DNA of 37,790 nt, from NCBI RefSeq assembly GCF_002211445.1, contig NZ_LSTO01000001.1, positions 715,681 through 753,470 on the forward strand, read 5' to 3'. Shown here piece after piece: positions 22,712 through 37,497 of this stretch. Both the position numbers and the translations under genes were made by a program. Numbering within the stretch: the first letter of the stretch is position 1; the number at the start of each line of letters is the position of its first letter. The notes beneath the pieces were generated by a model. It had not been told where the DNA came from. It saw only the letters and a list, made by a program, of their open reading frames with translations, and made no database searches. This stretch comes from Noviherbaspirillum denitrificans. GTDB lineage: Bacteria; Pseudomonadota; Gammaproteobacteria; Burkholderiales; Burkholderiaceae_D.

Positions 22712-22753
22712 TTGATGCAAATCAAATGAAATGCCAGACTGCATCGCTATAGT
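22712..22753 (+). promoter_or_regulatory. FNR-type class II promoter of triheme cytochrome
   Basis: TTGATGCAAATCAA (22712-22725) is a perfect TTGAT-N4-ATCAA box. TATAGT at 22748-22753 is a good -10, placing the transcription start near 22760, exactly 41.5 bases from the box centre as in class II FNR/ANR/DNR promoters. It also supports the translation start at 22785 rather than 22731. Confidence 0.82.
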
Positions 22754-22784
22754 CTTCCGCGTATTGCCGTTTCCATTCCCGCCC

Positions 22785-23393
22785 ATGCCGCGTCTTCGCC
22801 AATTCATCTTCCTGTTGCTGACCTGCCTGCTCGTACTATCGATGCAAAAGGGCGCTTACTCGCAGTTCCGCAAGGCGCAGATCGAACCGCCCGCGAGGGA
22901 GGCGGAGGCGGAGGAAGAAGTGCAGGCGCCGATGACCGCGGATGAAGGCGCGGACAAGAACCGCTTCTACGACCCTCGCAATCCCGATCACGCGACCCTG
23001 CAAAAGGGCGAGGAGATGCGCACCCAGCTCCCGCTCGACAAGCGCGGCGCCGTTGACTGGATGGCGGCCCTGCGCAGCGGCGCGATCAAGCCGCGCACCG
23101 ACCTCACGAACAGCAAGCCGCACCAGGTCCTGAACCTGGACATCATCCTCAAGAACACCAAGGAAATGCCCTGGGTACGCTTCCCGCATAACTCGCATAC
23201 CGAGTGGCTGGCCTGCAGCAATTGCCACGACAGTATCTTTGTGCCCAAGGCGGGCGCCAACGAAATCTCGATGGAAAAGATATTCCGCGGCCAGTTTTGC
23301 GGCGTGTGCCATGACCGCGTCGCGTTTGTCACGCACAACTCCTGCGAACGCTGCCATAGCGTCCCGCATGCGAACAGCAAGCAGTGGTGGTAA
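22785..23393 (+). CDS. Triheme c-type cytochrome (c7-like, 202 aa)
   Basis: A secreted or membrane-anchored periplasmic electron carrier. A hydrophobic signal or anchor (residues about 6-20) is followed by an acidic, disordered-looking linker (about 35-60). A C-terminal domain carries three CXXCH haem sites at C144 (CSNCH), C172 (CGVCH) and C187 (CERCH), with extra histidines (H135, H138, H184, H195) that could serve as second ligands. This resembles the triheme cytochrome c7 / c3-family domain. I chose ATG 22785 because the FNR-type promoter would start transcription near 22760, which would leave the upstream ATG 22731 untranscribed. The redox partner is unknown; FNR-type control suggests expression under low oxygen. 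Confidence 0.88.
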   Translation: MPRLRQFIFLLLTCLLVLSMQKGAYSQFRKAQIEPPAREAEAEEEVQAPMTADEGADKNRFYDPRNPDHATLQKGEEMRTQLPLDKRGAVDWMAALRSGAIKPRTDLTNSKPHQVLNLDIILKNTKEMPWVRFPHNSHTEWLACSNCHDSIFVPKAGANEISMEKIFRGQFCGVCHDRVAFVTHNSCERCHSVPHANSKQWW

Positions 23394-23790
23394 GTCGCCT
23401 TCGGCGTCAAAGCTTACGCGGCACTTACGGAATTCAGCCTGTTTTTTTCCCATATTTGCGTTCCGGATTTTCATTCGTAAAACGCAGTTGGGGAAAATTG
23501 ATCTAGATCATCAAAAAAACCGGGGCGCGTCGATATCCTTGCGCACATGTTGATATGCAATAAGCTTTGATGCCCCAAAGGGTAGCGTCAAAAACGATCA
23601 ACATCGATGTTTTCCTCCGGGAGTTGGCCCGCATCTTGCATTGTGGTTCCCGTAGGGAAAGGACGCCAGCAGCGATGTGGAGTACTCCGCAGAAGAGGGG
23701 ACCGATGCAGCTAATTGGCGATAAAACATACTCACTGATGCAGGACCGAGAATGAGACTAGAACGTGCTCGATCGCCGCGAGAAGACTCC
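23394..23790. other. 397-bp intergenic region before the Fnr-like regulator
   Basis: Holds a near-perfect FNR-type box (23498-23511) and the palindrome AACATCGATGTT (about 23600-23611). A 62-codon open frame (23567-23755) ends in an ATGA overlap with an alternative ATG of the regulator (23752), but its codon use and composition do not convince me it is a gene. Confidence 0.5.
23498..23539 (+). promoter_or_regulatory. FNR-type promoter before Fnr-like regulator
   Basis: TTGATCTAGATCAT (23498-23511) matches TTGAT-N4-ATCAA except for the last base. TATCCT at 23534-23539 stands at the class II -10 position, so transcription would start near 23546. This suggests autoregulation of the gene at 23791 or control by another FNR-type protein. 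Confidence 0.65.
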
Positions 23791-24462
23791 ATGCAAAACC
23801 TGAAACGCATTCTTGCCAATACCTCCCTGTTCCGCATGCTGGATGAGCGCCAGCTCGACGAGGTGACGACGGCCACGCAGCCGATCCGCGCCACGACGAA
23901 TACCTGCGTGATCAACCAGGGCGACGCTCCCAAGGGCGTCTATGTCGTTGTCTACGGCCAGGTGAAGATCGGCTTCGACCGCAAGGACGGCAGCGAAAAA
24001 ACGCTCGCGATCCTCGGGCAGAACAAGTGCTTCGGCCTGGGTGAAATGCTGCTCGACCGCGCGCACCTTGCCTTCGTGAAGACCACCACCGACTCGATGC
24101 TGGTGCATACCACGCGCGAGAAAATTCTCGAAGTTGCGAAGGATAATTTCGGCTTCGCACAGGAACTGATGGTGTGCGTCGGCCGCCAGCTCTACACGCT
24201 CACGCGCGATATCGAAAGCTATTCGCTGCAGACCGCCAAGCAGCGCCTGGCAGGGTACCTGCTGCGCCAGAGCCAGTACCAGGCCGGCGACACTGTCGAA
24301 CTCATCGCCAGCAAGACGCTGGTCGCCTCGCGCCTGAGTCTCACCCCGGAGACGCTCTCGCGCCTGTTGCACGACTTCTCCTCCGAAGGCCTGATCACGG
24401 TGATGGGCCGCCGCATCAAGATTCTCGATTACGAACGCCTTGGCGCGCTGCTGAGCGCGTAA
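23791..24462 (+). CDS. Crp/Fnr-family regulator without iron-sulfur cysteines (223 aa)
   Basis: A transcription factor with a cyclic-nucleotide-type beta-barrel (about 12-120), a long dimerisation helix (about 122-145) and a C-terminal winged HTH (about 150-218). The recognition helix reads LTPETLSRLL with E187, S190 and R191, the E..SR pattern by which FNR-type proteins read TTGAT half-sites. The N-terminal cysteine cluster that holds the 4Fe-4S centre in FNR is missing; cysteines occur only at 39, 80 and 129. It therefore looks more like DNR/NnrR-type members that sense NO, or another signal; the signal is inference. ATG 23791 is chosen by domain fit; ATG 23752 is possible. FNR-type boxes nearby are candidate targets. 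Confidence 0.88.
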   Translation: MQNLKRILANTSLFRMLDERQLDEVTTATQPIRATTNTCVINQGDAPKGVYVVVYGQVKIGFDRKDGSEKTLAILGQNKCFGLGEMLLDRAHLAFVKTTTDSMLVHTTREKILEVAKDNFGFAQELMVCVGRQLYTLTRDIESYSLQTAKQRLAGYLLRQSQYQAGDTVELIASKTLVASRLSLTPETLSRLLHDFSSEGLITVMGRRIKILDYERLGALLSA

Positions 24463-24656: not shown

Positions 24657-25292
24657 ATGAGCTTACAGGCGCATAGCCTCACCTGCATACGCGGCGACCT
24701 GCAGCTCTTTGCGGACCTCAGCTTCGACATCCAGCCCGGCGATGCCCTGTGGGTATCCGGCACCAACGGCAGCGGCAAGACCAGCCTGTTGCGCATGCTG
24801 TGCGGCCTTGCCGCACCGGCAGCGGGAGAGGTGCGCTGGCAGGGCCGCAATATTCGCAGCCTGCGCGACGAGTTCTGCAGCAAGCTGATCTACATCGGCC
24901 ACGCGAACGGTGTGAAGGATGACCTGATGGCGTGGGAGAACCTGGTGATTTCGACGACGCTCGCAGGCGATCCGGTGAGCGAGGAAGAGGCGCACCAGGC
25001 GCTGCAGCATCTCGGCCTCGGCCGCGCGGCCGACCTTCCCACGCGGGCGCTCTCGCAAGGGCAGCGCAAGCGCGTGGCCCTGGCCCGTCTGTCGCTGGGC
25101 ATGAAGATGCCGCTCTGGATCCTCGACGAACCCTTCACCGCTCTCGACAAGAGCGCTGTCGCTGCGCTGTGCGGCACGATCAGCAAGCATCTTTCCGGGG
25201 GCGGCATGGTGATTTACACCACCCACCAGGAAATCGACCTTTCGGCGAAGCGTGCGCTGCGCCTCGACATGAACGAGGGGCGGCTATGCTGA
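24657..25292 (+). CDS. ccmA: Haem exporter ATP-binding protein CcmA
   Basis: ATPase of the CcmABCD complex, which releases haem-loaded CcmE during System I cytochrome c maturation at the inner membrane. 211 residues, typical. Visible: Walker A GTNGSGKTS (about 39-47), the CcmA-type SKLIYIGHANGVKDDLMAWENL segment, ABC signature LSQGQRKRVALARL (about 133-146), Walker B LWILDEPFTALD (about 155-166) and H-loop TTHQE. ATG 24657 is preceded by AAAGG at six bases; the frame extends further upstream without homology. ccmB overlaps its end. With nine CXXCH-rich or single-haem proteins' worth of haem sites nearby, this machinery fits its setting. Confidence 0.95.
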   Translation: MSLQAHSLTCIRGDLQLFADLSFDIQPGDALWVSGTNGSGKTSLLRMLCGLAAPAAGEVRWQGRNIRSLRDEFCSKLIYIGHANGVKDDLMAWENLVISTTLAGDPVSEEEAHQALQHLGLGRAADLPTRALSQGQRKRVALARLSLGMKMPLWILDEPFTALDKSAVAALCGTISKHLSGGGMVIYTTHQEIDLSAKRALRLDMNEGRLC

Positions 25293-25954
25293 ATGCCTTG
25301 ATGTGCGTTGTCCGGCGTGACCTGCTGCTGGCGTTCCGCCGCCGCTCGGACGTGCTCACGACTTTGTTCTTCTTCATCATCGTCGCCAGCCTGTTTCCGC
25401 TCGGCGTCGGGCCCGAGCCGCAGCTGCTGCGCACGATGGCGCCCGGCATCCTGTGGGTGGCGGCGCTGCTCGCGTCGATGCTGGCGCTGGGGCGGCTGTT
25501 TGCGCTCGACTATGCCGACGGTACGCTGGAGCAGATGGTGCTTTCCTCCGAACCGTTGACGATCATTGTCATCGGCAAGGTCATCGCCCACTGGATCGTT
25601 TCCGGCCTGCCGCTCGTGCTGCTGGCTCCGGTGCTGGCAGTGCAGTTCGACCTCGCGTCCTCTTCGGTCGCGGTGCTGTTCGTCAGCCTGCTGCTCGGCA
25701 CGCCGGTGCTCAGCCTGGTCGGGTCGATCGGCGCGGCGCTCACGCTGGGCGTGCGCGGCGGCGGCGTGCTGGTTTCGCTGCTCGTGCTGCCGCTGTACAT
25801 CCCGGTGTTGATTTTTGGCGCAGGCGCGGTTGGTGCTGAGGTGTCCGGTGTCGGCGCCACGGCCCACCTGCTGCTGCTGGGTGGAGCGCTCGCCGGCGCT
25901 GCGGCACTTGCCCCCTGGGCCACTGCGGCAGGCCTGCGCATCGCTGTCGAATAA
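25286..25954 (+). CDS. ccmB: Haem exporter membrane protein CcmB
   Basis: Membrane partner of CcmA, 222 residues with about six hydrophobic segments. It opens with the conserved RRDLLLAFRRRSDVLTTLFFFIIV stretch and includes LGRLFALDYADGTLEQM and LPLYIPVLIFGAGA, all typical of CcmB. The ATG at 25286 overlaps the ccmA stop by seven bases, so the two are translated together. Unlike in most ccm operons, ccmC does not follow directly: a 407-bp gap intervenes. Confidence 0.95.
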   Translation: MLNALMCVVRRDLLLAFRRRSDVLTTLFFFIIVASLFPLGVGPEPQLLRTMAPGILWVAALLASMLALGRLFALDYADGTLEQMVLSSEPLTIIVIGKVIAHWIVSGLPLVLLAPVLAVQFDLASSSVAVLFVSLLLGTPVLSLVGSIGAALTLGVRGGGVLVSLLVLPLYIPVLIFGAGAVGAEVSGVGATAHLLLLGGALAGAAALAPWATAAGLRIAVE

Positions 25955-26361
25955 GCGCTTGCGCCCGGTAAGGGGAAGCAGTTTCTCCCTGCTGCGTGTA
26001 GGATTCCGTCTGCGTCCGCCGTCGCCGTCTCTCTTTCTGAAAGCGCTTGGGCCTGTTGTCAAAAAGGCCATGATGCGTGCTGACTGCAACTGTTCCCGAA
26101 GCATGCTGTCCGAGTGAAACAAGTACTGCCGGAAACTCAGTGGCACAGCGATTGCTTTAACGGAGACGGGTTGTATCCGCAGATTGTCAGCCGCATGAAA
26201 GCGGGCCGGGTACCGCCGGATAAACACCAATACGGTGGAATCCAAAGGCAGACAGCGCTATGCTGTCATCCAAATTCCTGAAACTGGGAAAGCTGCCGGA
26301 GAGATTCTTGACCTTGAACAGGTTCCGGCTGACATCAAAACTTTCTTGGAGCATTGACGTA
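25955..26361. other. 407-bp gap splitting the ccm cluster
   Basis: No convincing gene. The right half (about 26110-26357) is AT-richer than the ccm genes and has gene-like codon texture in two frames: an open stretch from GTG 26115 and another ending in LEQVPADIKTFLEH at 26357. This looks like a possible frameshifted remnant or a 40-codon ORF (26235-26357). It contains a near-consensus sigma-54 promoter at 26142-26157. Confidence 0.5.
26142..26157 (+). promoter_or_regulatory. Sigma-54 type promoter before ccmC
   Basis: TGGCACAGCGATTGCT differs from TGGCACG-N4-TTGCW at one defined base; GG (26143-26144) and GC (26155-26156) are 10 bases apart. It would give the ccmC-I operon its own promoter with a leader of about 195 nt. 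Confidence 0.72.
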
Positions 26362-27144
26362 GTGTCCACGATCCACCAAACCTTCGCCAGCAGGGCCGAA
26401 TCCAGCGGCTCGGGGTTTTTCAAGTATGCATCGCCGCAGACCTTTTTCCCACTTGCGGGAAAGATGATTCCCTGGTTTGCGACTGCCGCTGTCATCCTGG
26501 CTGTTGTCGGTCTGTACATCGGCTTCGTCGTTGCACCGACGGATCACCAGCAGGGCGAGTCCTACCGCATCATCTTCATCCATGTGCCGGCGGCATGGAT
26601 GTCCATGTTCATCTATATCGTCATGGCGTTCTGGTCCATCGTCGGCCTGACGCTCAATACCCGCCTGTCGTCCATGATGGCGACCGCGCTCGCGCCGACC
26701 GGCGCCATGTTCACCTTCCTCGCGCTGTGGACCGGTTCCCTCTGGGGCAAGCCGACCTGGGGCACCTGGTGGGTGTGGGATGCGCGACTGACGTCCGAAC
26801 TGATCCTGCTGTTCCTGTACATCGGTTTCATGGCGCTGCAGGCCTCGATCGACGACGCACGCCGTGCCGACAAGGCAGGCGCCGTGCTGGCGCTGGTAGG
26901 CGTGGTGAACATTCCGATCATCTACTTCTCGGTGCAATGGTGGAACACCCTGCACCAGGGCTCATCGGTCAGTATGACCAAGGCACCCAGCATGGCGATG
27001 ACCATGCTGCTCGGCATGATGGTCCTGGCATTCGCCGCCTGGGCGTATACCATTGCGGTCGCGCTGTACCGCGCGCGCTGCATCATGCTCGAGCGCGAGC
27101 GCCACACCGACTGGGTCAAGGAATACGTGGAGAAGAACACATGA
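26362..27144 (+). CDS. ccmC: Haem-handling membrane protein CcmC
   Basis: Loads haem onto CcmE in the periplasm. About 260 residues from GTG 26362, six membrane segments, and the tryptophan-rich WWD haem motif (PTWGTWWVWDARLTSEL, about 131-147), flanked by periplasmic histidines (H62, H74 and the H of WWNTLHQGSS) that ligate haem in this family. I chose the GTG because GGAG (26348-26351) precedes it by ten bases and homologues begin near STIHQ. The longer frame from 26260 is probably leader sequence. The stop overlaps ccmD by ATGA. Confidence 0.93.
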   Translation: MSTIHQTFASRAESSGSGFFKYASPQTFFPLAGKMIPWFATAAVILAVVGLYIGFVVAPTDHQQGESYRIIFIHVPAAWMSMFIYIVMAFWSIVGLTLNTRLSSMMATALAPTGAMFTFLALWTGSLWGKPTWGTWWVWDARLTSELILLFLYIGFMALQASIDDARRADKAGAVLALVGVVNIPIIYFSVQWWNTLHQGSSVSMTKAPSMAMTMLLGMMVLAFAAWAYTIAVALYRARCIMLERERHTDWVKEYVEKNT

Positions 27145-27335
27145 ACTGGAATAGCTGGAGCGACTTCTTCGCGATGGGCGGTTACGCGCTCTACGTGTGG
27201 GGCTCCGTCCTGATGACGGTGCTGCTGGTCGCAGGGGAAGTGCTTGCGGTGCGCATGCGCCGCAAGACCATCATGAAGTTGTACGGACGTTGGGTACGCA
27301 GTAACCGGAGGGAAAGCAATGAAAACGAGGCATAA
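27141..27335 (+). CDS. ccmD: Haem exporter protein CcmD (64 aa)
   Basis: Small single-pass membrane subunit that holds CcmE to CcmABC. It has the typical opening [39 protein letters not shown]: an aromatic N-terminus, one hydrophobic helix and a basic cytoplasmic tail. Start ATG 27141 overlaps the ccmC stop by four bases, and its own end overlaps ccmE by 17 bases, so translation is tightly coupled. The tail is slightly longer than in many CcmD proteins. Confidence 0.9.
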
Positions 27336-27831
27336 GCGCCTGATCCTGATCACGGCAGGGCTTGGCACACTGGGACTGGCAGCGTGGCTGGTCCTGTCTG
27401 CATTCCAGCAGAACATGGTGTTCTTCTTCACGCCGACACAAGTGTTCTCCGGCGAAGCGCCCAAGGGCCGCAGCTTCCGCATCGGCGGCATGGTGGAGGA
27501 GGGCAGCGTCAAGCGCCAGGCTGACGGCGTGACCGTCGCCTTCGTCGTGACCGATACCGCCAAGAAGATTCCGGTGACCTACAAGGGCATCCTTCCCGAC
27601 CTGTTCAAGGAAGGCAAGGGCGTCGTGGCACAGGGCAAGCTCGGCCATGACGGCAGTTTCGCCGCCGACGAAGTGCTCGCGAAGCACGACGAAAACTACA
27701 TGCCTTCCGAAGCGGCGTATGCCGTGAAGAAGGCGCATGAAGACGCCGCCAAGCAGAAGGCGGCAGGCGAACAGGCCGCTGCCGCGCCTGCAACGCAATC
27801 GGCCGTGCCGGATGCAAAGGAAGTGAAGTAA
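27319..27831 (+). CDS. ccmE: Haem chaperone CcmE
   Basis: Periplasmic haem chaperone that binds haem covalently through a histidine and passes it to CcmF/H. 170 residues: N-terminal membrane anchor (about 8-28), beta-barrel OB-fold domain with FFFTPTQV and [12 protein letters not shown] segments, and the signature [10 protein letters not shown] with H123 (covalent ligand) and Y127. The tail is alanine-rich and variable, as is common. The ribosome site GGAGGG lies inside the ccmD coding sequence. Confidence 0.95.
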
Positions 27832-29811
27832 ATGATCCCAGAACTTGGCAATTTCGCCTGCATGCTGGCGCTCGCCGTGGCATTGGTGCAGGGCATCCTG
27901 CCCATCGCCGGCTCCTTCAAGGGCAACCAGCGCTGGATGGCGCTGGCACGTCCGGCGGCGGCAAGCAATTTCCTGCTGATCACGGTGGCCTTCGGCTGCC
28001 TGGTCTATGCATTCGTCACCAACGACTTCACGGTGACCTACGTCGCCTCCAACTCCAACTCCTCGCTGCCGGTGTACTACCGTGTCGCGGGCGCATGGGG
28101 CGGCCACGAAGGCTCGCTGCTGCTGTGGCTGTGGATGCTGGTGATGTGGAGCTTTGCCGTCGCCGTATTCAGCCGCCAGCTGCCGGATGAAACCGTGGCG
28201 CGCGTGCTCGGCGTGATGGGCCTGGTTGCCGTCGGCTTCCTCGCCTTCCTGCTGTTCACGTCCAACCCGTTCGACCGCCTGCTGCCTGGCGCGCCGGATG
28301 GCCGTGACCTGAATCCGCTGCTGCAGGACTTCGGCATGATCATCCACCCGCCGCTGCTGTACATGGGCTACGTCGGTTTCTCCGTTGCGTTTGCGTTCGC
28401 GATCGCGGCGCTGATGGGCGGCCAGCTCGATGCGGCATGGGCGCGCTGGTCGCGTCCCTGGACCTCGGTCGCATGGATGTTCCTGACGCTGGGCATTTTC
28501 ATGGGTTCCTTCTGGGCCTACTACGAGCTCGGCTGGGGCGGCTGGTGGTTCTGGGATCCGGTCGAAAACGCCTCCTTCATGCCGTGGCTGGTCGGCACTG
28601 CGCTGATCCACTCGCTGGCGGTGACTGAAAAACGCGGCAGCTTCAAGAACTGGACCGTGCTGCTCGCGATCATCGCCTTCTCGCTGTCGCTGCTCGGCAC
28701 CTTCCTGGTCCGTTCCGGCGTGCTGACTTCGGTGCACGCGTTCGCGACCGATCCGGAGCGCGGCCTGTTCATCCTGATCTTCCTCGCCATCGTCATCGGC
28801 GGCTCGCTGCTGCTGTACGCATGGCGCGCACCGAAGGTCGGCCTGGGCGGCAGCTTCAAGCTGATCTCGCGCGAAACCGCGCTGCTGGTCAACAACGTGC
28901 TGCTGCTGGTCGCTTCCGGCACCGTGCTGCTCGGCACCCTGTATCCGCTGTTCCTCGATGCGCTGGCGCTCGGCAAGATTTCCGTCGGCCCGCCGTACTT
29001 CGAATCGGTGTTCGTGCCGCTCATGATTCCGGTCCTGTTGCTTGTTGCCGTCGGCCCGTTCGTGCGCTGGAAGGATGCGTCGCTGCCTGAACTGCTGCGC
29101 CGCCTGCGCTGGGTGGCTGCCGTTTCCGTGGGCGTCGCGATTGCGCTGGCCCTCGTGCTGGCTGCTTCGCCGATGATCACCGCCGGCCTCGCATTCGCGC
29201 TGTGGATCATCTTTGCCTCCATCTCGCATATCGTCGAGCGTGTGCGCCACGCTCCCGCATCCATGCCGCTGTCCAAGCGCCTCGCCCGCGAGCCGCGCAG
29301 CTACTGGGCCATGCTGCTCGCCCACGCCGGCATCGGCGTGTTCGTGATCGGCGTGACCATGGTCAAGGGCTTCGACGATGCGAAGGACGTGAACATGCGC
29401 GTCGGCGAAACCGCCACCGTCAACGGCTATGCCTTCACCATGAAGGATCTTGCCGAGGTCAAGGGCCCGAACTACATCGCGGCACGAGGCACCTTCGAGG
29501 TAGTGAAGGATGGCAAGCTGGTCACGATGATGTACCCGGAAAAGCGCATGTACCTCGTGCAGAAGATGCCGATGACCGAGGCCGGCATCGACCGCGGCTT
29601 CACGCGCGACCTGTACGTCTCGCTCGGCGAGGCAACACAGGACGGCGCCTGGATCGTGCGCGTGCAGCACAAGCCCTTCGTCGGCTGGATCTGGGGCGGC
29701 TGCATCATCATGGCGATCGGCGGCCTGCTCGCCGCGTCCGACCGCCGCTACCGCGTCGCGGCCCGCCAGAAGAAAGAGGCGGCTGCCATGCTCGCGGCGA
29801 AACCGGTTTAA
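27832..29811 (+). CDS. ccmF: Cytochrome c haem lyase subunit CcmF
   Basis: Large membrane subunit of the haem ligation complex. 659 residues with many hydrophobic helices, the GGHEGSLLLW motif (about 90-99), the WWD motif WGGWWFWDPVENASFMPW (about 235-252) and conserved histidines (IHPPLLYMGY, about 171-180). Length is normal. The ATG follows the ccmE stop with no gap, so it depends on ribosomes leaving ccmE; GGAAG overlaps the end of ccmE. Confidence 0.97.
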   Translation: MIPELGNFACMLALAVALVQGILPIAGSFKGNQRWMALARPAAASNFLLITVAFGCLVYAFVTNDFTVTYVASNSNSSLPVYYRVAGAWGGHEGSLLLWLWMLVMWSFAVAVFSRQLPDETVARVLGVMGLVAVGFLAFLLFTSNPFDRLLPGAPDGRDLNPLLQDFGMIIHPPLLYMGYVGFSVAFAFAIAALMGGQLDAAWARWSRPWTSVAWMFLTLGIFMGSFWAYYELGWGGWWFWDPVENASFMPWLVGTALIHSLAVTEKRGSFKNWTVLLAIIAFSLSLLGTFLVRSGVLTSVHAFATDPERGLFILIFLAIVIGGSLLLYAWRAPKVGLGGSFKLISRETALLVNNVLLLVASGTVLLGTLYPLFLDALALGKISVGPPYFESVFVPLMIPVLLLVAVGPFVRWKDASLPELLRRLRWVAAVSVGVAIALALVLAASPMITAGLAFALWIIFASISHIVERVRHAPASMPLSKRLAREPRSYWAMLLAHAGIGVFVIGVTMVKGFDDAKDVNMRVGETATVNGYAFTMKDLAEVKGPNYIAARGTFEVVKDGKLVTMMYPEKRMYLVQKMPMTEAGIDRGFTRDLYVSLGEATQDGAWIVRVQHKPFVGWIWGGCIIMAIGGLLAASDRRYRVAARQKKEAAAMLAAKPV

Positions 29812-29824
29812 CCCATAGGACAAC

Positions 29825-30352
29825 ATGAAACGCTTTTTGCTACCGCTCGGTATCTTCGTCGGCCTGCTGGTTTTCCTCGGCGTCGGCCTGCGACTGAATC
29901 CGCGTGAAATTCCCTCGCCCTTCATCGGCAAGCCCGCGCCCGCCTTCAAGGTGGCGCAACTGCACCAGCCGGACAAGACGATCTCGCCGCAGGACATGGT
30001 GGGGCAGGTCTGGATCCTCAACGTATGGGCGTCGTGGTGTGTCTCCTGCCGCGCGGAACATCCGCACCTGATGGAATTCGCGAAGGCCAACGTGGTGCCG
30101 CTGATCGGGCTGAATTACAAGGACGCCCGCATCGACGGCATCAAGTGGCTGAGCGAGTTCGGCAACCCGTACAACCTGTCGGCCTTCGACAATGACGGCC
30201 GTATCGGTATCGACTATGGCGTCTACGGCGTGCCGGAGACCTTCGTCATCGACAAGCAGGGCGTGATCCGCATGAAGTACACCGGCCCGCTGACGCCGGA
30301 GGCGATCGCGACGAAACTGATGCCCATGATTAAAGAGTTGAAGAGTGCGTAA
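29825..30352 (+). CDS. ccmG: Thiol:disulfide interchange protein CcmG/DsbE
   Basis: Membrane-tethered periplasmic thioredoxin that keeps apocytochrome and CcmH cysteines reduced. 175 residues: N-terminal anchor (about 4-22), thioredoxin fold with active site WCVSC (C72, C75) and a cis-proline loop (GVYGVPETFVID, about 137-148). The dipeptide between the cysteines is VS rather than the more common PT/PV. AGGA lies before ATG 29825. The end overlaps ccmH by eight bases. Confidence 0.95.
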   Translation: MKRFLLPLGIFVGLLVFLGVGLRLNPREIPSPFIGKPAPAFKVAQLHQPDKTISPQDMVGQVWILNVWASWCVSCRAEHPHLMEFAKANVVPLIGLNYKDARIDGIKWLSEFGNPYNLSAFDNDGRIGIDYGVYGVPETFVIDKQGVIRMKYTGPLTPEAIATKLMPMIKELKSA

Positions 30353-30815
30353 ATTATTGTTCATCCTCCTGCTGGCCGTATCCACGCTCTCGGCACAGGC
30401 CAAGGAAGCTGCGCTGGCAAGCGACAACCCGGAACTGGAGAAGCGCGTGATGGCGCTGTCCGAAGAGCTGCGCTGCCTTGTTTGCCAAAACCAGACGCTG
30501 GCTGATTCGCATGCCGAACTCGCGATGGACCTGAAGCAGCAGGTGCGCGAAAAGCTGTCGAGCGGTATGACCAACCAGCAGGTTGTCGACTACATGGTCG
30601 AGCGTTACGGCGACTTCGTGATGTACCGTCCGCCGATGAAGAGCACCACCTTCCTGCTGTGGGTCGGCCCGTTCGCGCTGCTGATTGGCGGCATCCTGGT
30701 ACTGGTACGCAAGCTCTCGCGCCGCCAGGCAAATCAGTCGGAAGTGCCCGACACCGATCTCAAGCGCGCAGCGTCCTTGCTGGAAGGCGCGAACGAAACG
30801 AAGGATAAAGCATGA
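30345..30815 (+). CDS. ccmH: Cytochrome c maturation protein CcmH
   Basis: Periplasmic-facing, membrane-anchored thiol protein that handles the CXXCH cysteines. 156 residues: signal peptide (about 1-19), the hallmark LRCLVCQNQ with C44 and C47, a three-helix domain and one membrane segment (about 102-122). It corresponds to the short CcmH form, with the TPR part encoded separately as CcmI. GTG start at 30345 within the end of ccmG; the stop overlaps ccmI by ATGA. Confidence 0.94.
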   Translation: MRKLLFILLLAVSTLSAQAKEAALASDNPELEKRVMALSEELRCLVCQNQTLADSHAELAMDLKQQVREKLSSGMTNQQVVDYMVERYGDFVMYRPPMKSTTFLLWVGPFALLIGGILVLVRKLSRRQANQSEVPDTDLKRAASLLEGANETKDKA

Positions 30816-32056
30816 CCGTATTTCTGATTGGCGCCGGCCTGTTGGTGGCCGTGGCGCTTGCCTTGCTGTTGCCGCCGCTGCTGCGCAAGGAGCAGACGCC
30901 CGACCACGTGCAGCGCGACCAGCTCAACCTGGCCGTCCTGCGCGACCAGCTGCGCGAACTCGAAGCCGACCGCGAGGCCGGCCTGATCGAGCAGGCAGCG
31001 TATGACAGCGCGCGCCACGAACTCGAGCGCCGCGTAGCGGAAGAAGTGTTGCCGCAGGCAACCGTGACGGCAACCGACGGCGGCAAGCGCTGGATGGCCG
31101 GCGTGGTCGGTGTGGCCGTACCCGTCGTGGCTGTCACGGTGTACATGCTGCTTGGTACGCCCGAGGCGATGAATCCCGCGCAGCAGGTAGCCGCCGCCCA
31201 CCAGCAGAATTCGCATGAGGTGACCAGCGAGCAGATCCAGGGCATGGTCACCAGCCTTGCAGAGCGCCTGAAGAACGAACCGGACAACATCGAAGGCTGG
31301 CACATGCTGGCGCGCTCGTACAACGCCATCGGCAGCTACAAGGAAGCAGCCGACGCGTATGCGCGCCTGGTGCAGCTGGTGCCGAACGATTCCAACCTGT
31401 TGGCCGATTACGCCGATACGCTGGCAATGGCACTCGGCCGTACGCTGGTCGGCGAGCCGGAGAAGCTGGCGGAAAAGGCGACGCAGATCGATCCGCAGAA
31501 TGTGAAGGCGATCGCGCTGTGGGGCAGCGCCGCATTCGAGCGCAAGGACTACGCCGTCGCCGCACAGCGCTGGCAGAAGATCCTGGCGCTGGTGCCGGCG
31601 GATTCCGAAGTCGCGCGTTCGGTGTCGGGCAGCATCTCCGAGGCACAGAGGCTTGGCAACTTGCCGCAGACGGTACAGGTCGCGCCCGAAGCGCCGAAGG
31701 CCGCCGCCGGCGGTGCCAAGGTCACCGGCACCGTCGACATCGATCCGGCGCTGCGCGCGCAGGTCTCCGATACCGACACCGTGTTCATCTTCGCCCGTGC
31801 AGCCGAGGGCCCGCGTTTCCCGCTGGCCGTGCTGCGCAAGCAGGTGAAGGACCTGCCGGCGAGCTTCGAGCTGAATGACAGCATGAGCATGATGCCCGAG
31901 GCGAAGCTGTCGAGCGTGCCGATGGTGGTGGTCGGTGCGCGCGTGTCGAAGAACGGCAGCGCGACGCCCGCGCCGGGCGATCTTGAAGGGCTGACGGCGC
32001 CGGTAGCGCCGGGTGCGGCAAACCTGAAGATCACGATCAACCGGAAGAACGGCTGA
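30812..32056 (+). CDS. ccmI: Cytochrome c biogenesis protein CcmI
   Basis: Apocytochrome chaperone with TPR repeats. 414 residues: membrane helix (about 2-22), cytoplasmic coiled segment (DQLNLAVLRDQLRELEADREAGLI), second membrane helix (about 94-112), a TPR domain (GWHMLARSYNAIGSYKEAADAYARLVQLVPND and following) and a C-terminal beta domain (VDIDPALRAQVSDTDTVFIFARA). It captures the C-termini of apocytochromes. Last gene of the ccmCDEFGHI unit, followed by a strong terminator. Confidence 0.93.
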   Translation: MTVFLIGAGLLVAVALALLLPPLLRKEQTPDHVQRDQLNLAVLRDQLRELEADREAGLIEQAAYDSARHELERRVAEEVLPQATVTATDGGKRWMAGVVGVAVPVVAVTVYMLLGTPEAMNPAQQVAAAHQQNSHEVTSEQIQGMVTSLAERLKNEPDNIEGWHMLARSYNAIGSYKEAADAYARLVQLVPNDSNLLADYADTLAMALGRTLVGEPEKLAEKATQIDPQNVKAIALWGSAAFERKDYAVAAQRWQKILALVPADSEVARSVSGSISEAQRLGNLPQTVQVAPEAPKAAAGGAKVTGTVDIDPALRAQVSDTDTVFIFARAAEGPRFPLAVLRKQVKDLPASFELNDSMSMMPEAKLSSVPMVVVGARVSKNGSATPAPGDLEGLTAPVAPGAANLKITINRKNG

Positions 32057-32637: not shown

Positions 32638-32988
32638 ATGAAATCTGCAAGAACAATGCGGGTGCTGCTGGCGTCCGCTCTTGCGGGTACGGCGCTCATG
32701 GCCGTGCCTGCCGTCCACGCGGTTGATGCCGCTGCCGCCGAAAAACTCGCCCGCCAGGAAGGCTGCCTGCGCTGCCACGGTATCGACCGTGCGAAGGACG
32801 GTCCGTCATACAAGGAACTGGCCGCCAAGCTCAAGGCCAAGCCTGATCCCGAAGGACGCGTCATCAAGCACCTGAGCAGTGGCGTGAAGGTCAAGTTCGA
32901 AGACGGCCACGAAGAAGACCACAAGATTCCGAAGACCAAGGATGCGGACCAGATCAAGAACCTGGCCCAATGGATCCTTTCGCAGTAA
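32638..32988 (+). CDS. Monoheme cytochrome c without Met ligand (116 aa)
   Basis: A small periplasmic cytochrome: signal peptide (about 1-28, ending VHA), one haem site CLRCH (C43, C46, H47) and a C-terminal helix NLAQWILSQ typical of class I cytochromes. The mature protein has no methionine at all. In the place where class I proteins have a PMPP-type loop it reads EEDHKIPKTKD, with H95; H78 and H95 are both conserved in its relative at 37138. Bis-histidine haem and a low potential are likely (inference). Its position before the decaheme gene matches that of MtoD in iron oxidisers, whose haem is described as His/Met. AAGGAAGGA (about 32622-32630) supports ATG 32638. Confidence 0.88.
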   Translation: MKSARTMRVLLASALAGTALMAVPAVHAVDAAAAEKLARQEGCLRCHGIDRAKDGPSYKELAAKLKAKPDPEGRVIKHLSSGVKVKFEDGHEEDHKIPKTKDADQIKNLAQWILSQ

Positions 32989-33005
32989 AGCAGTAAAGCA
33001 GTAAC
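32982..33005 (+). repeat. Short 8-bp tandem repeat over a stop codon
   Basis: Three near-identical copies of GCAGTAAA at 32982-33005; the first supplies the last codon and TAA stop of the cytochrome gene. It looks like a slippage duplication and does not change the protein. Confidence 0.7.
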
Positions 33006-33071
33006 GCCATCACCAGGACGGAAGACGAGGGAAGCGTTTTCCGCCCGGTTCGCATAATCAGGGAGAACACC

Positions 33072-34001
33072 ATGAAATTCTGGCAGAAAGTCGCCACGAC
33101 GCTGGCGCTGGCCGCCGGCCTTGCCGCAGCTTCGCCTGCATTCGCAGCGAAGGGCCCTCAGATCGACGGGGCCAAGAATGACGACGCGGTCTGTACCCGC
33201 TGTCACGACCAGTCCGAGAAGAATCCGGTCCTGTCGATCTATCAAACCCGCCACGGCGTGAAGGCGGACACCCGCACGCCCACCTGCCAGGGTTGCCACG
33301 GCGCGAGTGAAGCGCACGTGAAGAACACGGCCAATACCTCCGTCCGTCCGCCGGTCGATTCCTTCAGCGCGAAGGGCAAGAACGCGACGAATGCCGAAAT
33401 CCAGACCTGTTACGGCTGCCACAACAGCGGCAAGCGGTCCCACTGGGCCGGTAGCGCGCACGAAAAGGCCGACGTGGTCTGCACCCAGTGCCACACCATG
33501 CACACCGCCAACGACCGTGTACAGAACAAGCTCACGCAGCCGGAAGTCTGCTTCACCTGCCACAAGGAACAGCGCGCAATGTACACGCGTCCGTCCCGCC
33601 ATCCGATCAAGGACGGCAAGATGGCGTGCTCCGATTGCCACAACCCGCACGGCACAGCCGGCGAGAAGCTGATGGTGCGCGATTCGGTCAATGCGACCTG
33701 CTACACCTGCCACATGGAAAAGCGCGGCCCGTTCATTCGCGGCCACCAGCCGGCGCAGGAAGACTGCTCGCTCTGCCATAACCCGCACGGCACGACGACG
33801 CCGAACCTGCTGAAGGCGCGCCCGCCGTTCCTGTGCCAGCAATGCCATGAGCCGGCGACCCACCAGGGCCGCAATGCCTCGCTGACCGGCACCGCCACGG
33901 CTGCCAATACCGCCGCCCGCGGTTGCGTGAACTGCCATACCAACATCCATGGCACCAACAACCCGGCGAACATCAACAACGAACGCACCATGCGTCGCTA
34001 A
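33072..34001 (+). CDS. Decaheme c-type cytochrome, MtrA/MtoA/DmsE family (309 aa)
   Basis: Periplasmic electron wire that plugs into an outer-membrane porin. Signal peptide (about 1-26) and exactly ten CXXCH sites, starting at C41, C72, C113, C137, C160, C186, C210, C232, C255 and C285, with interspersed histidines for bis-His ligation and repeated CxxCHNPHG units. Length is close to MtrA/MtoA and much shorter than PioA, which has an N-terminal extension. Followed 18 bp later by its MtrB/PioB-type porin. Direction of flow (iron oxidation inward, or metal/extracellular reduction outward) cannot be told from sequence. GGGAGAA precedes the ATG. Confidence 0.95.
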   Translation: MKFWQKVATTLALAAGLAAASPAFAAKGPQIDGAKNDDAVCTRCHDQSEKNPVLSIYQTRHGVKADTRTPTCQGCHGASEAHVKNTANTSVRPPVDSFSAKGKNATNAEIQTCYGCHNSGKRSHWAGSAHEKADVVCTQCHTMHTANDRVQNKLTQPEVCFTCHKEQRAMYTRPSRHPIKDGKMACSDCHNPHGTAGEKLMVRDSVNATCYTCHMEKRGPFIRGHQPAQEDCSLCHNPHGTTTPNLLKARPPFLCQQCHEPATHQGRNASLTGTATAANTAARGCVNCHTNIHGTNNPANINNERTMRR

Positions 34002-34019
34002 CAGGTCAGGAGAACGCAC

Positions 34020-36074
34020 ATGAAACCGCAAGCACAACTGTCGTTTCCCCTCGCCGTGATGGCGGCGGCGCTGCTCGCCGCCTTCCCTGCGCACGCAGAC
34101 GACGAAATCGACGCACTGGTCAAGCCGACCAGCAGCGTGGCCGTGGGCGCAGGCTATGTCAGCAAGGACGCGCCCCGTTTCGGCCAGTACAGCGGCCTGA
34201 ACCAGGCGGGCACCTACGGTCTGCTCAATCTCGATTACCGCAACCTCGACCAGGCGACCGGCACCTGGCTCCGCTTCCGGGGCAACAATCTCGGCCTCGA
34301 CAGCCGCGACATGCGCCTGCAGCATGAGCGCCAGGGTGACTGGGCCTACTTCTTCGACTACACGGAAATCCCGCGCTTCGAGCCTTACACCGCCAATACC
34401 GCGGTGAGCGGCATCGGCACGCCCAACCTCACGATCCCGGCTGCAGGTGCAACCCTCGCGCCGTTCGACATGAAGATGAAGCGCGAGGCACTGGGCTTTG
34501 GCTTCAGCAAATTCCTCGGCAACGGCTTCGACGTGCAGGTCCGCCTGCGCAACGAAGAGAAGAACGGCGAGCGCATCTTCGCACGCGGCAACTTCACGCC
34601 TGCGTTCGAATTCACGCCCGAGCCGATCAACTCGACGACGCGCCAGATCGATGCCATCCTTGGTTATACGGACAAGAGCCTGCAGGTGCAGGGCAGCTAC
34701 TACGGCACCTCGTACAACAACCACAATACCGCGCTGAACATCGCCGGCGGCAATGCGGGCCTGCAGCCGTTCAGCCCGATCGGCCTGCCACCCGATTCGC
34801 AGTCGCACCAGCTGGCGCTGACTGGCGGCTACAACTTCACGACGACCACGCGCGGTACATTCAAGCTGGCCTATACCCGCGCCGAACAGAACGATACCTT
34901 CCTCTCCGGCGTCCCGGTGTCGCCCGGCATCTCTCCCACGGGCAACCTGGGCGGCCGCATGGACACGACGCAGATGCAGGTCGGCGTTTCCTCGCGCCCG
35001 ATCCCCAAGCTGTCCCTGGTCGGCGACCTGCGCTATGAAGACCGTCACGACAAGACGCCGATCCGCTTGTACACCACGAACGGCGTGTCCCCGACGACCA
35101 CCTTCAGCGGCGAAAACGAGCCGCGCTCCATCCGCACCACCAAGGGTCTGCTGGAAGCCTCCTACCGGCTGCCGATGTCCTTCCGCGTGACCGGCGGCGT
35201 GGATTATGTGGAGAAGGAGCGCAATACCTCCGCTGTGCGCGTCGTGAGCTTCCGTGACAAGACGGAAGAGACGTCCTGGCGCGTTGGCGTCCAGCGCGCC
35301 ATGATGGAGGCGGTGACCGGTTCGATCACCTACATCCACAGTGACCGCAACGGTTCTCCGTTCTATACCAACGTGCTGAACTGCGGCGCCGTCACCTGCG
35401 GCACCGCCACCGCCTTCAACCTGATCGCGCCGCTGCACTTGTCCGACCGTACGCGCGACAAACTGCGCGCGTCCTTCGACTGGACGCCGATGGAAGACAT
35501 GTCGGTGCAGTACGTGACCGAGCAGACCCGCGACGACTACGCCAACCGCACGGTGGAAGAGTTCGGTTTGCGGGACGGCCGTTCGCGCACCCACTCGCTC
35601 GACGTGTCCTACAGCTTCAGCGACGAATGGCAGGGCAACGCCTGGGTCTCGAATACGGAAACCAGCGCCAATCGCGCGGACCGCATTGCGGCAACCAATA
35701 CCTGGGCATCGACGGTCAGCAACAACGGCCGTTCCTACGGCGTTGGCCTGCGCGGCAAGCCGTTCGCGAAGTGGGATGTCGGCATGGACCTGAGCCACTC
35801 GGACATCACCGACGAAGCGCTGCAATGGGCGCTGACCGGCCCGGCGGTGACCTCGCTGCCGTCCTTCTATACGCGCCAGACCACGCTCAAGCTGTTCACC
35901 ACCTACGCGCTGCAAAAGAACGCCAGCCTGCGTTTCGACTTCATCCATGACCGTTTTGCGACCAATGACTGGTCCTGGGCGACCTGGACGTATTTCGACG
36001 GTACGACGCTCAGGCAGAGTCCGCGCCAGTACGTCAACTTCATGGGCGTGACCTACATCTACCGCTTCCAGTAA
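34020..36074 (+). CDS. MtrB/PioB-family decaheme-associated outer-membrane porin (684 aa)
   Basis: Outer-membrane beta-barrel that sheaths the decaheme cytochrome. Signal peptide (about 1-26, ending AHA), then alternating amphipathic strands throughout (for example YGLLNLDYRNLDQATGTWLRFRGNNLGLDSRDMRLQHERQGDWAYFFDY). The C-terminus ends in aromatic YIYRFQ, with phenylalanine next to last rather than last. The N-terminal CXXC of Shewanella MtrB is absent; the only cysteines of the mature protein are a pair at about residues 457 and 462 (NCGAVTCG). Length is typical. CAGGAGAA precedes the ATG. No MtrC-like outer cytochrome follows, as in MtoAB and PioAB clusters. Confidence 0.94.
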   Translation: MKPQAQLSFPLAVMAAALLAAFPAHADDEIDALVKPTSSVAVGAGYVSKDAPRFGQYSGLNQAGTYGLLNLDYRNLDQATGTWLRFRGNNLGLDSRDMRLQHERQGDWAYFFDYTEIPRFEPYTANTAVSGIGTPNLTIPAAGATLAPFDMKMKREALGFGFSKFLGNGFDVQVRLRNEEKNGERIFARGNFTPAFEFTPEPINSTTRQIDAILGYTDKSLQVQGSYYGTSYNNHNTALNIAGGNAGLQPFSPIGLPPDSQSHQLALTGGYNFTTTTRGTFKLAYTRAEQNDTFLSGVPVSPGISPTGNLGGRMDTTQMQVGVSSRPIPKLSLVGDLRYEDRHDKTPIRLYTTNGVSPTTTFSGENEPRSIRTTKGLLEASYRLPMSFRVTGGVDYVEKERNTSAVRVVSFRDKTEETSWRVGVQRAMMEAVTGSITYIHSDRNGSPFYTNVLNCGAVTCGTATAFNLIAPLHLSDRTRDKLRASFDWTPMEDMSVQYVTEQTRDDYANRTVEEFGLRDGRSRTHSLDVSYSFSDEWQGNAWVSNTETSANRADRIAATNTWASTVSNNGRSYGVGLRGKPFAKWDVGMDLSHSDITDEALQWALTGPAVTSLPSFYTRQTTLKLFTTYALQKNASLRFDFIHDRFATNDWSWATWTYFDGTTLRQSPRQYVNFMGVTYIYRFQ

Positions 36075-36098
36075 AAGGGCGGCAGACGTACGACAGGG

Positions 36099-36125
36099 AC
36101 GGGAGGCAAATGCCTCCCGTTTGCG
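36099..36125 (+). terminator. Hairpin after the porin gene
   Basis: ACGGGAGGCA-AA-TGCCTCCCGT: 10-bp perfect stem with a minimal loop, followed by TTGCGTTT. Likely ends the cytochrome-porin transcript, leaving rquA on its own promoter. Confidence 0.7.
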
Positions 36126-36215
36126 TTTACGGGGACGATTTCCGGGCGCGTTTTTTGCTTGCCTTGCGGAAATAGATGCATTTTTAACTGGAATTCCCAA
36201 AATTGGTAATTACAC

Positions 36216-36231
36216 TGGGAAATTGTTTGCT
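36216..36231 (+). promoter_or_regulatory. Possible sigma-54 type promoter of rquA
   Basis: TGGGAAATTGTTTGCT keeps the GG and GC 10 bases apart and TTTGCT, with three mismatches in the -24 half. It lies 90 bp before the rquA start. The weakest of the sigma-54 candidates. Confidence 0.42.
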
Positions 36232-36320
36232 TTGCAAAAGCGGGGCAGGCGAGCACGGCGGGAACGGCACCAACCCCCCGTGCGTTTCCGTTGCAGCCAC
36301 CTACCATGAGGACGCATTGA

Positions 36321-37073
36321 ATGAATAATTTGATTCCGCAGTCCGGCAGCATGCAGGGAATCGACGAGGAGGTGCCTCTCGAGTTCGACAAGACGCCGAT
36401 CCGCATTTCGGTGCCGGCCTACCTGCAGAAGGTTTACTGGTGGGCTTACGTGCATCCGAATGCGGTACGCGTGTTCGAGCGCGAATGGCTCGTCAACCTC
36501 ATCCTGTTCGGCAATTACTCGGCGCTGCGCGACGAAGCGCTCGCCGAGATCGGAGACCAGGCTGCCGGCCGCACGCTGCAGGTGGCTTGTGCCTATGGCG
36601 ACCTTACGCCGCGGCTGCGCGAGCGCATTGCGCCCGACGGCCAGCTCCACGTCATCGATGTGCTGCCGATCCAGCTCGAAAACCTCAAGCGCAAGCTGCC
36701 GCCGGATACGCGCATCTCGCTGTTCCAGCGCGATTCCGCCGCCCTTGGCTTTGCCGATGCCAGCTATGAGCGCGTGCTCGTCTTCTTCCTGCTGCACGAA
36801 CAGCCCGAGGAAGTGCGCCGCCGCACGCTGGCCGAGGCCTGCCGGGTGGTCAAGCCGGGCGGCAAGGTCATCATCGTCGACTACCACGGTCCGGACGACT
36901 GGAATCCGGTACGCCATCCTTTGCGCGCACTGTTGCGCCGGCTTGAGCCCTATGCCGATGACCTGTGGAAGAACGAAATCTCCAAATACCTGCCGGTGGA
37001 CATCGCATTCTCCGGCATGGAGAAACAAACCTATTTTGGCGGGTTGTACCAGAAGGTGGTGTTGACCCGCTAG
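36321..37073 (+). CDS. rquA: Rhodoquinone biosynthesis protein RquA
   Basis: Converts ubiquinone to rhodoquinone by replacing a methoxy group with an amino group; S-adenosylmethionine is reported as the amino donor. 250 residues with a UbiE-like Rossmann fold, but the glycine-rich motif I is altered to LQVACAYGDLTPRL (about 86-99), the hallmark that separates RquA from true methyltransferases. The N-terminal segment VYWWAYVHPNAVRVFEREWLV (about 38-58) is also characteristic. Rhodoquinone has a lower potential than ubiquinone and serves fumarate reduction or reverse electron flow under low oxygen. Placement between the porin-cytochrome genes and a second monoheme cytochrome ties it to this electron-transfer region. 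AGGA precedes ATG 36321. Confidence 0.88.
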   Translation: MNNLIPQSGSMQGIDEEVPLEFDKTPIRISVPAYLQKVYWWAYVHPNAVRVFEREWLVNLILFGNYSALRDEALAEIGDQAAGRTLQVACAYGDLTPRLRERIAPDGQLHVIDVLPIQLENLKRKLPPDTRISLFQRDSAALGFADASYERVLVFFLLHEQPEEVRRRTLAEACRVVKPGGKVIIVDYHGPDDWNPVRHPLRALLRRLEPYADDLWKNEISKYLPVDIAFSGMEKQTYFGGLYQKVVLTR

Positions 37074-37137
37074 ACAAGGGCGGGGCGGTGCAAGGCCGCC
37101 TCCGATAGCAAACCATAAAACACGACAAGGGAGTGTC

Positions 37138-37497
37138 ATGAGTATCACTGTTGCAAAACGGATGGCGGCTGCTGCTGCCGCAATCGCGATGTTGATGTCG
37201 TTCGGCGCCATGGCTGCTGATGAGCAGGCGGTCGACGAAGAGGCCGCAATGGCGCTCGCGCGCCGCGAGGACTGCCTGAAATGCCACGCGGTCGACAAGA
37301 AGAAGGATGGCCCGTCGTACAAGTCGATCGCGACGAAGTACAAGAACAAGCCCGAGGCCGAAGAGAAGCTGGTCAAGCACCTCACGACAGGGCCGGTGGT
37401 GAAGACGGCGGCAGGCGATGAGGACGAGCACCGCATTCCCAAGACCAAGGATGAAAAGGAACTGCGGAATATCATCCGCTGGATCCTCTCGCGTTGA
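37138..37497 (+). CDS. Monoheme cytochrome c without Met ligand, paralogue (119 aa)
   Basis: Close relative of the cytochrome at 32638. Signal peptide (about 1-27, ending AMA), haem site CLKCH (C46, C49, H50), KKDGPSYKSIA segment, and a C-terminal IIRWILSR helix. The only methionine of the mature part (M38) lies before the haem motif and is not in ligand position; H81 and H98 (DEDEHRIPKTKD) are shared with the paralogue and are the ligand candidates. GGGAG lies before the ATG. It follows rquA by 64 bp, possibly on the same transcript. It is probably a soluble periplasmic shuttle with a low potential (inference). Confidence 0.88.
   Translation: MSITVAKRMAAAAAAIAMLMSFGAMAADEQAVDEEAAMALARREDCLKCHAVDKKKDGPSYKSIATKYKNKPEAEEKLVKHLTTGPVVKTAAGDEDEHRIPKTKDEKELRNIIRWILSR

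Follow-up and report, generated by a model that had tools for sequence, protein, structure and literature searches.

A rhodoquinone synthase gene recurrently linked to an Mto-type porin-cytochrome conduit in Noviherbaspirillum denitrificans and its relatives

The rquA-conduit gene block

We analyzed a 37,790-nucleotide stretch of the Noviherbaspirillum denitrificans genome (contig NZ_LSTO01000001.1, positions 715,681 to 753,470 of the forward strand), hereafter the window (G000:C1:715681-753470, where G000 denotes this genome), in which five genes in the order mtoD1-mtrA-mtrB-rquA-mtoD2 occupy 4.9 kb of the plus strand and place rquA, coding for a rhodoquinone synthase, directly within an Mto-type porin-cytochrome conduit locus (Table 1). 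A preliminary description made from the DNA letters had read the same stretch as a cytochrome, a decaheme MtrA/MtoA, an MtrB/PioB porin, rquA, and a paralogous cytochrome on one strand within 5 kb, and curated profiles confirm this reading (cut-offs: TIGR03508, 192 bits; TIGR03509, 240 bits; NF038261, 175 bits). Both elements by which we recognized a conduit are present, namely, a decaheme MtrA-family cytochrome and an adjoining MtrB/PioB barrel. Their genes are spaced 18 bp apart, and the proteins match chain A (MtrA, 206 bits) and chain B (MtrB, 113 bits) of PDB 6r2q, which we take to be the MtrCAB complex.

Table 1. Positions of the block genes and of associated features in the window (aa, amino acids; scores are profile bit scores unless stated otherwise)
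Feature	Position	Strand	Remarks
mtoD1, MtoD-type periplasmic monoheme cytochrome c, predicted His47/His95 ligation	32638..32988	+	116 aa, 1 CXXCH; PF00034 33 bits
mtrA/mtoA, decaheme periplasmic conduit cytochrome	33072..34001	+	309 aa, 10 CXXCH; TIGR03508 268 bits
mtrB/mtoB, outer-membrane beta-barrel sheathing MtrA	34020..36074	+	684 aa; TIGR03509 357 bits, PF11854 468 bits
mtrB-rquA gap	36075..36320	+	decayed NapC/NirT pieces here in two congeners, intact gene in two Oxalobacteraceae metagenome-assembled genomes (MAGs)
rquA, rhodoquinone synthase (ubiquinone to rhodoquinone, with S-adenosylmethionine as amino donor)	36321..37073	+	250 aa; NF038261 303.2 bits
mtoD2, second MtoD-type monoheme, mtoD1 paralogue	37138..37497	+	119 aa, 1 CXXCH; also at this place in three congeners
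ccmB, C, D, E, F, G, H, I (cytochrome c maturation)	24932..32056	+	directly upstream of the block; context for the cytochromes
perfect FNR/Dnr-type box TTGATCCACATCAA	32389..32402	+	249 bp before mtoD1
weak sigma54-like site (GG-N10-GC type)	36216..36231	+	score 12/15, background 0.12 per 250 bp

Both monohemes have MtoD (PDB 4XXL) as their best PDB sequence match (mtoD1, 107 bits; mtoD2, 94.5 bits) and, as had been proposed, they are paralogous (52% over 90 residues). More specifically, C43, C46, H47, and H95 of mtoD1 align with MtoD, the distal His is aligned for mtoD2 too, and mtoD1 contains no Met beyond position 21, with Met21 itself falling within the signal peptide as judged by eye. Because both ligand His residues are invariant in 12/12 aligned homologues, the earlier designation of the two proteins as bis-His-like is well founded, the ligation being a prediction from the alignment. 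MtoD is ligated by His47 and His95 and has a potential of +155 mV (PMC4412085).

The rquA product matches the profile at equivalog level, so that the gene is identified as a rhodoquinone synthase gene that would allow rhodoquinone to be made in this organism. D113 and D138 are 25 residues apart, as are D118 and D143 of R. rubrum RquA, to which we equate them by this spacing; they occur in 10/10 and 9/10 aligned RquA proteins, respectively. The equivalog match and the two essential aspartates placed by spacing are features shared with known RquA proteins, and respiratory genes near rquA have been described before (PMC5953543). Reported values place rhodoquinone at -63 mV (PMC11707229) and ~160 mV below ubiquinone (PMC13386864). 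MenD and MqnC, the two proteins for menaquinone synthesis that were searched for, were not found over cut-off in G000, in the congeners G001, G004, and G005, or in G661 of the order sample (see below), and menaquinone is therefore not expected in these five genomes.

Two side observations concern RquA itself. An RquA-like paralogue scoring 103 to 121 bits, i.e., below the RquA cut-off, is encoded at G000:C1:4453589-4454224, with like genes in G001, G004, G005, G014, and G033; it is also present in genomes without RquA over cut-off, and may represent a sister family. Besides its conduit-linked copy, G001 carries two more rquA genes over cut-off, on contigs C176 and C306 (L039 and L040), away from the conduit.

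Recurrence of the linkage within and beyond the genus

Of the 15 genomes in the genus sample, 4 have both MtrB and an RquA over cut-off, and the other 11 have neither (Fisher p = 0.0007, uncorrected for kinship). All four genomes carrying the block (G000, G001, G004, and G005) keep the order mtoD1-mtrA-mtrB-rquA-mtoD2, and the mtrA, mtrB, and rquA products of the window are 61 to 83% identical to those of the three congeners.

Beyond the genus, a scan with an RquA alignment yielded 438 relatives, of which we retained the best 80 by likeness to the window RquA as named loci (designated L, below), among which G001 and G005 of the window's genus are included. A locus was labelled as linked if a gene for extracellular electron transfer (EET) lay within ~10 kb of rquA, and one protein query set with a single threshold was used throughout, both for the loci and for 20 control stretches placed at round coordinates in 11 rquA-bearing genomes of the order sample and not in the genomes of the 80 loci. 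An EET gene was found near rquA in 34 of the 80 best loci compared with 1 of the 20 controls, where it was a weak MtoD match. By type, the 80 loci include 17 with mtrA, 19 with mtrB, 21 with MtoD, 12 with NapC/NirT, 12 with an octaheme-b gene, and 15 with MtrC. Many of these loci are short contigs; 7 kb is available on both sides of rquA in 42/80, and 23 of those 42 hold an EET gene. Named genera with rquA-EET loci include Caenimonas, Ramlibacter (also R. lithotrophicus RBP-1), Piscinibacter, Aquabacterium, and Rhodoferax. The suspicion that rquA might neighbor these genes in this genome alone is thus removed by the block in congeners and by rquA-EET loci in other genera, and chance adjacency was rejected because the five-gene order is kept in three congeners and the linkage recurs elsewhere.

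The first RquA tree (126/127 rows, the fragment L188 being excluded) requires 24 changes of the EET label, 11 of them forced; 0/500 shuffles gave a number as low, and the label is therefore clustered, nothing more. Four pairs of rows from different sets have identical RquA (L072/L155, L115/L156, L106/L171, and L120/L190). On a quick tree limited to the 77/126 rows with at least 7 kb on each side, in which gains are indistinguishable from losses, the EET label changes 13 times and the mtrB label 9 times; starred branches force at least 7 and at least 5 of these changes, respectively. Moreover, in a tree of MtrA from rquA-linked loci, unlinked MtrA from other genera being excluded, the rquA-linked proteins fall into at least three supported groups, i.e., the window type (96/95), a Ramlibacter type (100/100), and a third (97/99).

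Candidate quinol dehydrogenases and surface cytochromes

The surface cytochrome and the inner-membrane quinol enzyme had been described as lying outside the window, and this holds. No OmcA/MtrC-type cytochrome (TIGR03507) was found over cut-off anywhere in G000, nor in G001, G004, and G005; there is one match over cut-off in G661. For the quinol enzyme, relatives offer a candidate beside rquA. The two Oxalobacteraceae MAG loci L059 and L060 read mtoD-mtrA-mtrB-tetraheme-rquA with the NapC/NirT gene intact, and in L059 the two genes overlap by 8 bp, the rquA ATG falling within the last part of the tetraheme gene. Locus L101 reads rquA-mtoD-tetraheme-mtrA-mtrB, likewise with an intact NapC/NirT gene; in L071 and L116 an mtoD-tetraheme pair leads a cluster that runs on to rquA; and in three Rhodoferax MAGs (L089, L118, and L122) and a betaproteobacterial MAG (L091) such a pair is divergent from rquA, without mtrAB. 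All seven tetrahemes scanned are NapC/NirT proteins (204 to 257 bits, cut-off 24), and the three scanned with NCBIfam fall below the NapC/NirT subfamily cut-off that the napC product of G000 passes.

C-terminal relics of a NapC/NirT gene are present in the mtrB-rquA gap of G005 (locus L042; 35.0 bits, best shuffle 25.0) and G001 (locus L038; 32.0 bits, best shuffle 29.3), with 0/300 shuffles scoring as high in each case, and no remnant was recognizable in the gap of the window or of G004 (L041). The ancestral block probably read mtoD1-mtrA-mtrB-napC/nirT-rquA-mtoD2. Inside the decayed gene of G001 (L038 8040-8199) lies a 160-bp element with perfect 25-base terminal inverted repeats, resembling a miniature inverted-repeat transposable element.

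NapC/NirT genes of G000 and G004 adjoin diheme genes, the one in G000 being napB. We set aside the full-length G000 gene (C1:2217557) as the quinol enzyme of this genome and took it as the napC of the nitrate system because it stands beside napB and its product is above the NapC/NirT subfamily cut-off. A truncated second NapC/NirT gene beside a diheme gene is found at G000:C1:1634945-1635286, possibly a decayed second nap cluster.

A second mtrAB pair, accompanied by a third MtoD-type monoheme and a multiheme protein, is present in all four block-bearing genomes. In G000 this cluster reads mtrA2-mtrB2-decaheme-cytochrome b-mtoD3, the decaheme and the separate cytochrome b (PF01292, 82 bits) lying at C1:4806042-4808080. 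In G004, G005, and G001, the second mtr cluster encodes an octaheme of ~688 aa instead, which adjoins the rquA block in G004 and G005 and lies on another contig in G001; the G000 counterpart is ~4 Mb off on the same contig. Six of nine members of the octaheme family match PF01292 at E 0.01 (the L041 protein scores 24.6 bits, under the cut-off of 30.1), scores with formate dehydrogenase gamma models are far under their cut-offs, and a PDB sequence search gave no match. The AlphaFold model is poor (mean pLDDT 48), its best fold match being FdnI (1kqf_C, E 1.6e-3, TM 0.67 by target). Judging by these weak profile matches and the low-confidence fold, the octaheme C-terminus is probably a cytochrome b part. 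The octaheme-b protein and the decaheme with its cytochrome b, each beside a second mtrAB pair, look like the CbcL/CbcBA-type quinol oxidases of Geobacter, a likeness for which the cytochrome b part was compared.

Also near the second mtr cluster, at L051 10165-14164, a monoheme and two triheme cytochromes c with cbb3-type c domains stand beside an NHL-repeat protein. By heme counts, G004 has a similar set downstream of its mtr island, and G005 has part of one.

A proposed electron route, its alternatives, and known systems

We propose that this Mto-type conduit has its own low-potential quinone supply. RquA would convert ubiquinone to rhodoquinone, a multiheme quinol dehydrogenase of the inner membrane would oxidize rhodoquinol, and the MtoD-type bis-His monohemes would ferry electrons through the periplasm to the MtrA enclosed by the MtrB barrel, from which they would pass to an outside acceptor, for example Fe(III), humics, or an electrode. 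In relatives, the rhodoquinol enzyme would be the NapC/NirT tetraheme coded beside rquA; in this genus, it would probably be the multiheme c plus cytochrome b enzyme coded with the second mtrAB pair, which in the present genome lies elsewhere. We assign this route from rhodoquinol to the outside a probability of roughly 0.48. The idea of a dedicated path between a low-potential quinone pool and the cell exterior, put forward in the preliminary description, is strengthened by the NapC/NirT genes that two relatives have between mtrB and rquA, and the recurrent linkage is on its side as well. The ImoA enzyme of Sideroxydans lithotrophicus ES-1 is active from 0 to -400 mV and suits low-potential quinols, and in another strain MtoD was able to pass electrons from CymA to MtrA (PMC13390432).

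A number of observations weigh against this route. Genome-wide co-occurrence, which holds in the genus (4 genomes with both genes, 11 with neither), fails in an even sample of the order (399 genomes including our own): RquA is over cut-off in 36/399 and MtrB in 37/399, both are present in 5/398 without our own genome (p = 0.20), and an EET gene lies near rquA in only 3/37 loci, leaving 34/37 without one. Among those five genomes, the distance between rquA and mtrB is ~0.1 kb in G661 and 14 kb in G726, where both lie on one contig. In the class sample (369 genomes including our own), both genes occur in 5/368 others (p = 0.004, weak), always on different contigs. A general co-occurrence of rquA and conduits across the order was therefore rejected, and we limit the claim to certain RquA lineages. 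In addition, the four block-bearing genomes of the genus have no intact NapC/NirT gene between mtrB and rquA, and no NapC/NirT protein was found in G001 or G005, so that while the napC of G000 could still serve as the quinol enzyme, these two congeners have none. In ES-1, MtoD (+155 mV) lies above the potential range of MtoA and does not bind it, and MtoD gave no rise in current together with ImoA in Shewanella (PMC13390432). Lastly, a terminator-like hairpin follows mtrB in three congeners, as judged by eye, so that mtrB and rquA may be transcribed separately; on the plus strand of the window, a terminator scan gave no match behind mtrB. The weak sigma54-like site of the window has clearer copies (TGGTAC-N5-TTGCA) in the mtrB-rquA gap of three congeners, and together with the hairpin these sites suggest that rquA-mtoD2 may form its own transcription unit.

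Another counterweight is fumarate reductase. SdhA/FrdA genes, recognized by a sequence signature, are found near rquA in 31/80 best loci against 1/20 controls (an open reading frame cut by the end of the control), including 19 of the 34 loci with an EET gene and 11 of the 19 with mtrB. Ten of these proteins were scanned; nine are quinol:fumarate reductase flavoproteins over an equivalog cut-off and one is a succinate dehydrogenase. In L063, L064, L074, and L116, the SdhA/FrdA open frame starts 4 to 53 bp downstream of rquA, and all 12/12 octaheme-b loci among the best 80 have an SdhA/FrdA gene. These numbers weaken the proposed route and strengthen the alternative that rquA serves fumarate respiration or redox balance and belongs, together with the conduit, to one commonly regulated anaerobic island, without any exchange of electrons between rhodoquinol and the conduit; at the 19 EET loci concerned, rquA may serve fumarate reductase first. 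This alternative also agrees with fumarate reduction as the known role of rhodoquinone (PMC9814641), with an earlier survey in which rquA of many bacteria lay no more than 15 genes away from genes of complex I, II, or III and of respiration (PMC5953543), and with most rquA genes of the order sample lying away from conduits. The FNR-type signals by the cluster fit it too: besides the box before mtoD1, a second perfect one is located at 22712, just before a triheme open reading frame, the window contains 5 sites with at most one mismatch versus 0.52 expected, and perfect boxes occur in the mtoD-rquA intergenic regions of Rhodoferax L118 and L122. Before mtoD1 of G001, G004, and G005, no box with fewer than two mismatches was found.

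Yet fumarate reductase does not accompany the linkage everywhere. No SdhA/FrdA signature was found in the window or in 13 other scanned stretches of G000, G001, G004, and G005, nor was such a gene seen beside the genus octaheme in the stretches scanned. The gene is likewise missing from the scanned stretches of 15/34 EET-bearing loci, of L059, L060, L071, L101, and the divergent-type loci, and a fumarate-reductase-type gene from those of 8/12 NapC/NirT-linked loci. Moreover, a NapC/NirT quinol-dehydrogenase gene overlaps with rquA or sits beside it in L059 and L060, and the linkage involves more than one conduit lineage. We consider the fumarate alternative less likely than the proposed route, though a serious contender. 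In Ramlibacter-type loci rquA lies between conduit and fumarate reductase and may serve either or both. A separate arrangement, octaheme-b followed directly by an frdA-type gene with rquA 1.6 to 1.7 kb on, was seen in L095, L097, L119, L123, L127, L132, and L136 and may connect a multiheme-b quinol enzyme with fumarate reductase.

Taken more widely, rhodoquinol may replace menaquinol as the donor for extracellular respiration in some Burkholderiales without menaquinone. Cassettes joining rquA to MtoD-type monohemes, to different MtrAB conduits, and to a quinol oxidase of the NapC/NirT or multiheme-b kind would have been assembled repeatedly, often with fumarate reductase, so that one pool would feed inside and outside acceptors, the window lineage keeping the outside branch alone at this locus. 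We regard this wider scenario as tentative.

Electrons might instead be taken up, the conduit bringing them inward from Fe(II) or another outside source, with rhodoquinone as the acceptor pool for NADH production or fumarate reduction. The Fe(II)-oxidation pathway of ES-1 includes MtoAB and MtoD (PMC4412085, PMC13390432), the direction of ImoA is debated (PMC9600427), and MtrC, missing over cut-off from the four block-bearing genomes, is not listed in the compared description of the ES-1 mto cluster either. However, a pool of lower potential would be harder to reduce with Fe(II) than ubiquinone, and MtrC/OmcA-type cytochromes, typical of reducers, are found in 15/80 related rquA neighborhoods, which makes uptake improbable. 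The Mtr family, for its part, is said to be patchy and to move between lineages. RquA does the same (PMC11707229), but that rquA is merely carried along by a mobile EET island without any functional tie seems very improbable given the at least 7 forced linkage changes on the long-flank tree, the variety of arrangements and conduit lineages, and the linkage retained while the intervening NapC/NirT gene decayed.

All parts of the proposed rhodoquinol route are known individually, and we found no report joining them, in agreement with the preliminary description: a search of open-access full-text literature gave, among the matches listed, none that combines rquA or rhodoquinone with Mtr/Mto conduits, supplementary tables (e.g., the rquA neighborhoods of PMC5953543) being outside the search. 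The compared parts of PMC5953543 do not name an rquA-conduit linkage, and the terms "extracellular" and "mtr" do not occur in PMC11707229. The closest relative is the Mto pathway of ES-1 (MtoA, MtoB, MtoD, ImoA, and PmcA), which also combines a decaheme, a porin, and a bis-His MtoD-type monoheme, and whose locus was already known to have two monohemes (PMC13390432); NapC/NirT at the locus is a further likeness in L059, L060, and L101. In contrast to the ES-1 locus, the block includes rquA, its second monoheme is a bis-His MtoD paralogue as opposed to the His/Met PmcA (PMC13390432), and an intact ImoA-like NapC/NirT gene, part of the complete ES-1 pathway, is lacking at the locus in the four block-bearing genomes of the genus. 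It likewise differs from rquA-fumarate reductase neighborhoods in having no such reductase gene nearby in the genus stretches scanned. The decaheme/porin conduit and, in relatives, the NapC/NirT quinol dehydrogenase recall the MtrCAB and CymA proteins of Shewanella, from which the present genome differs in having no OmcA/MtrC over cut-off, in carrying a rhodoquinone gene, and in the failure to find MenD and MqnC. CymA-type extracellular electron transfer is known with menaquinol.

The pairing of rquA with a conduit hints at how some menaquinone-less bacteria may power respiration on outside acceptors. A 2026 study of ES-1 noted that ImoA suits low-potential quinols although this betaproteobacterium is reported to have genes for ubiquinone and none for menaquinone, and the main text of the study does not mention rhodoquinone or rquA (PMC13390432). 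A linked rquA would resolve this mismatch wherever it occurs, and for part of such organisms it would be a direct answer, as a low-potential quinone would be made from ubiquinone. If the rhodoquinol route is correct, rhodoquinone has a second role beyond fumarate respiration, and the linkage offers a gene marker for metagenome surveys; if rquA serves fumarate respiration instead, the loci still map where rhodoquinone and extracellular respiration meet.

Three further features of the window lie outside the block. A Crp/FNR-family regulator is encoded at 23752-24459, between the triheme and ccm genes, and its Cys 52, 93, and 142 form no N-terminal FNR-type cluster. The triheme gene itself, near the ccm genes at 22731-23390, codes for a cytochrome c7-like protein (TIGR04257, 63.5 bits; PF14522, 45 bits). 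At 698-2311, the window encodes a SET-domain protein with a Rubisco LSMT substrate-binding domain (PF00856 and PF09273), a combination that is, to our knowledge, unusual in a bacterium.

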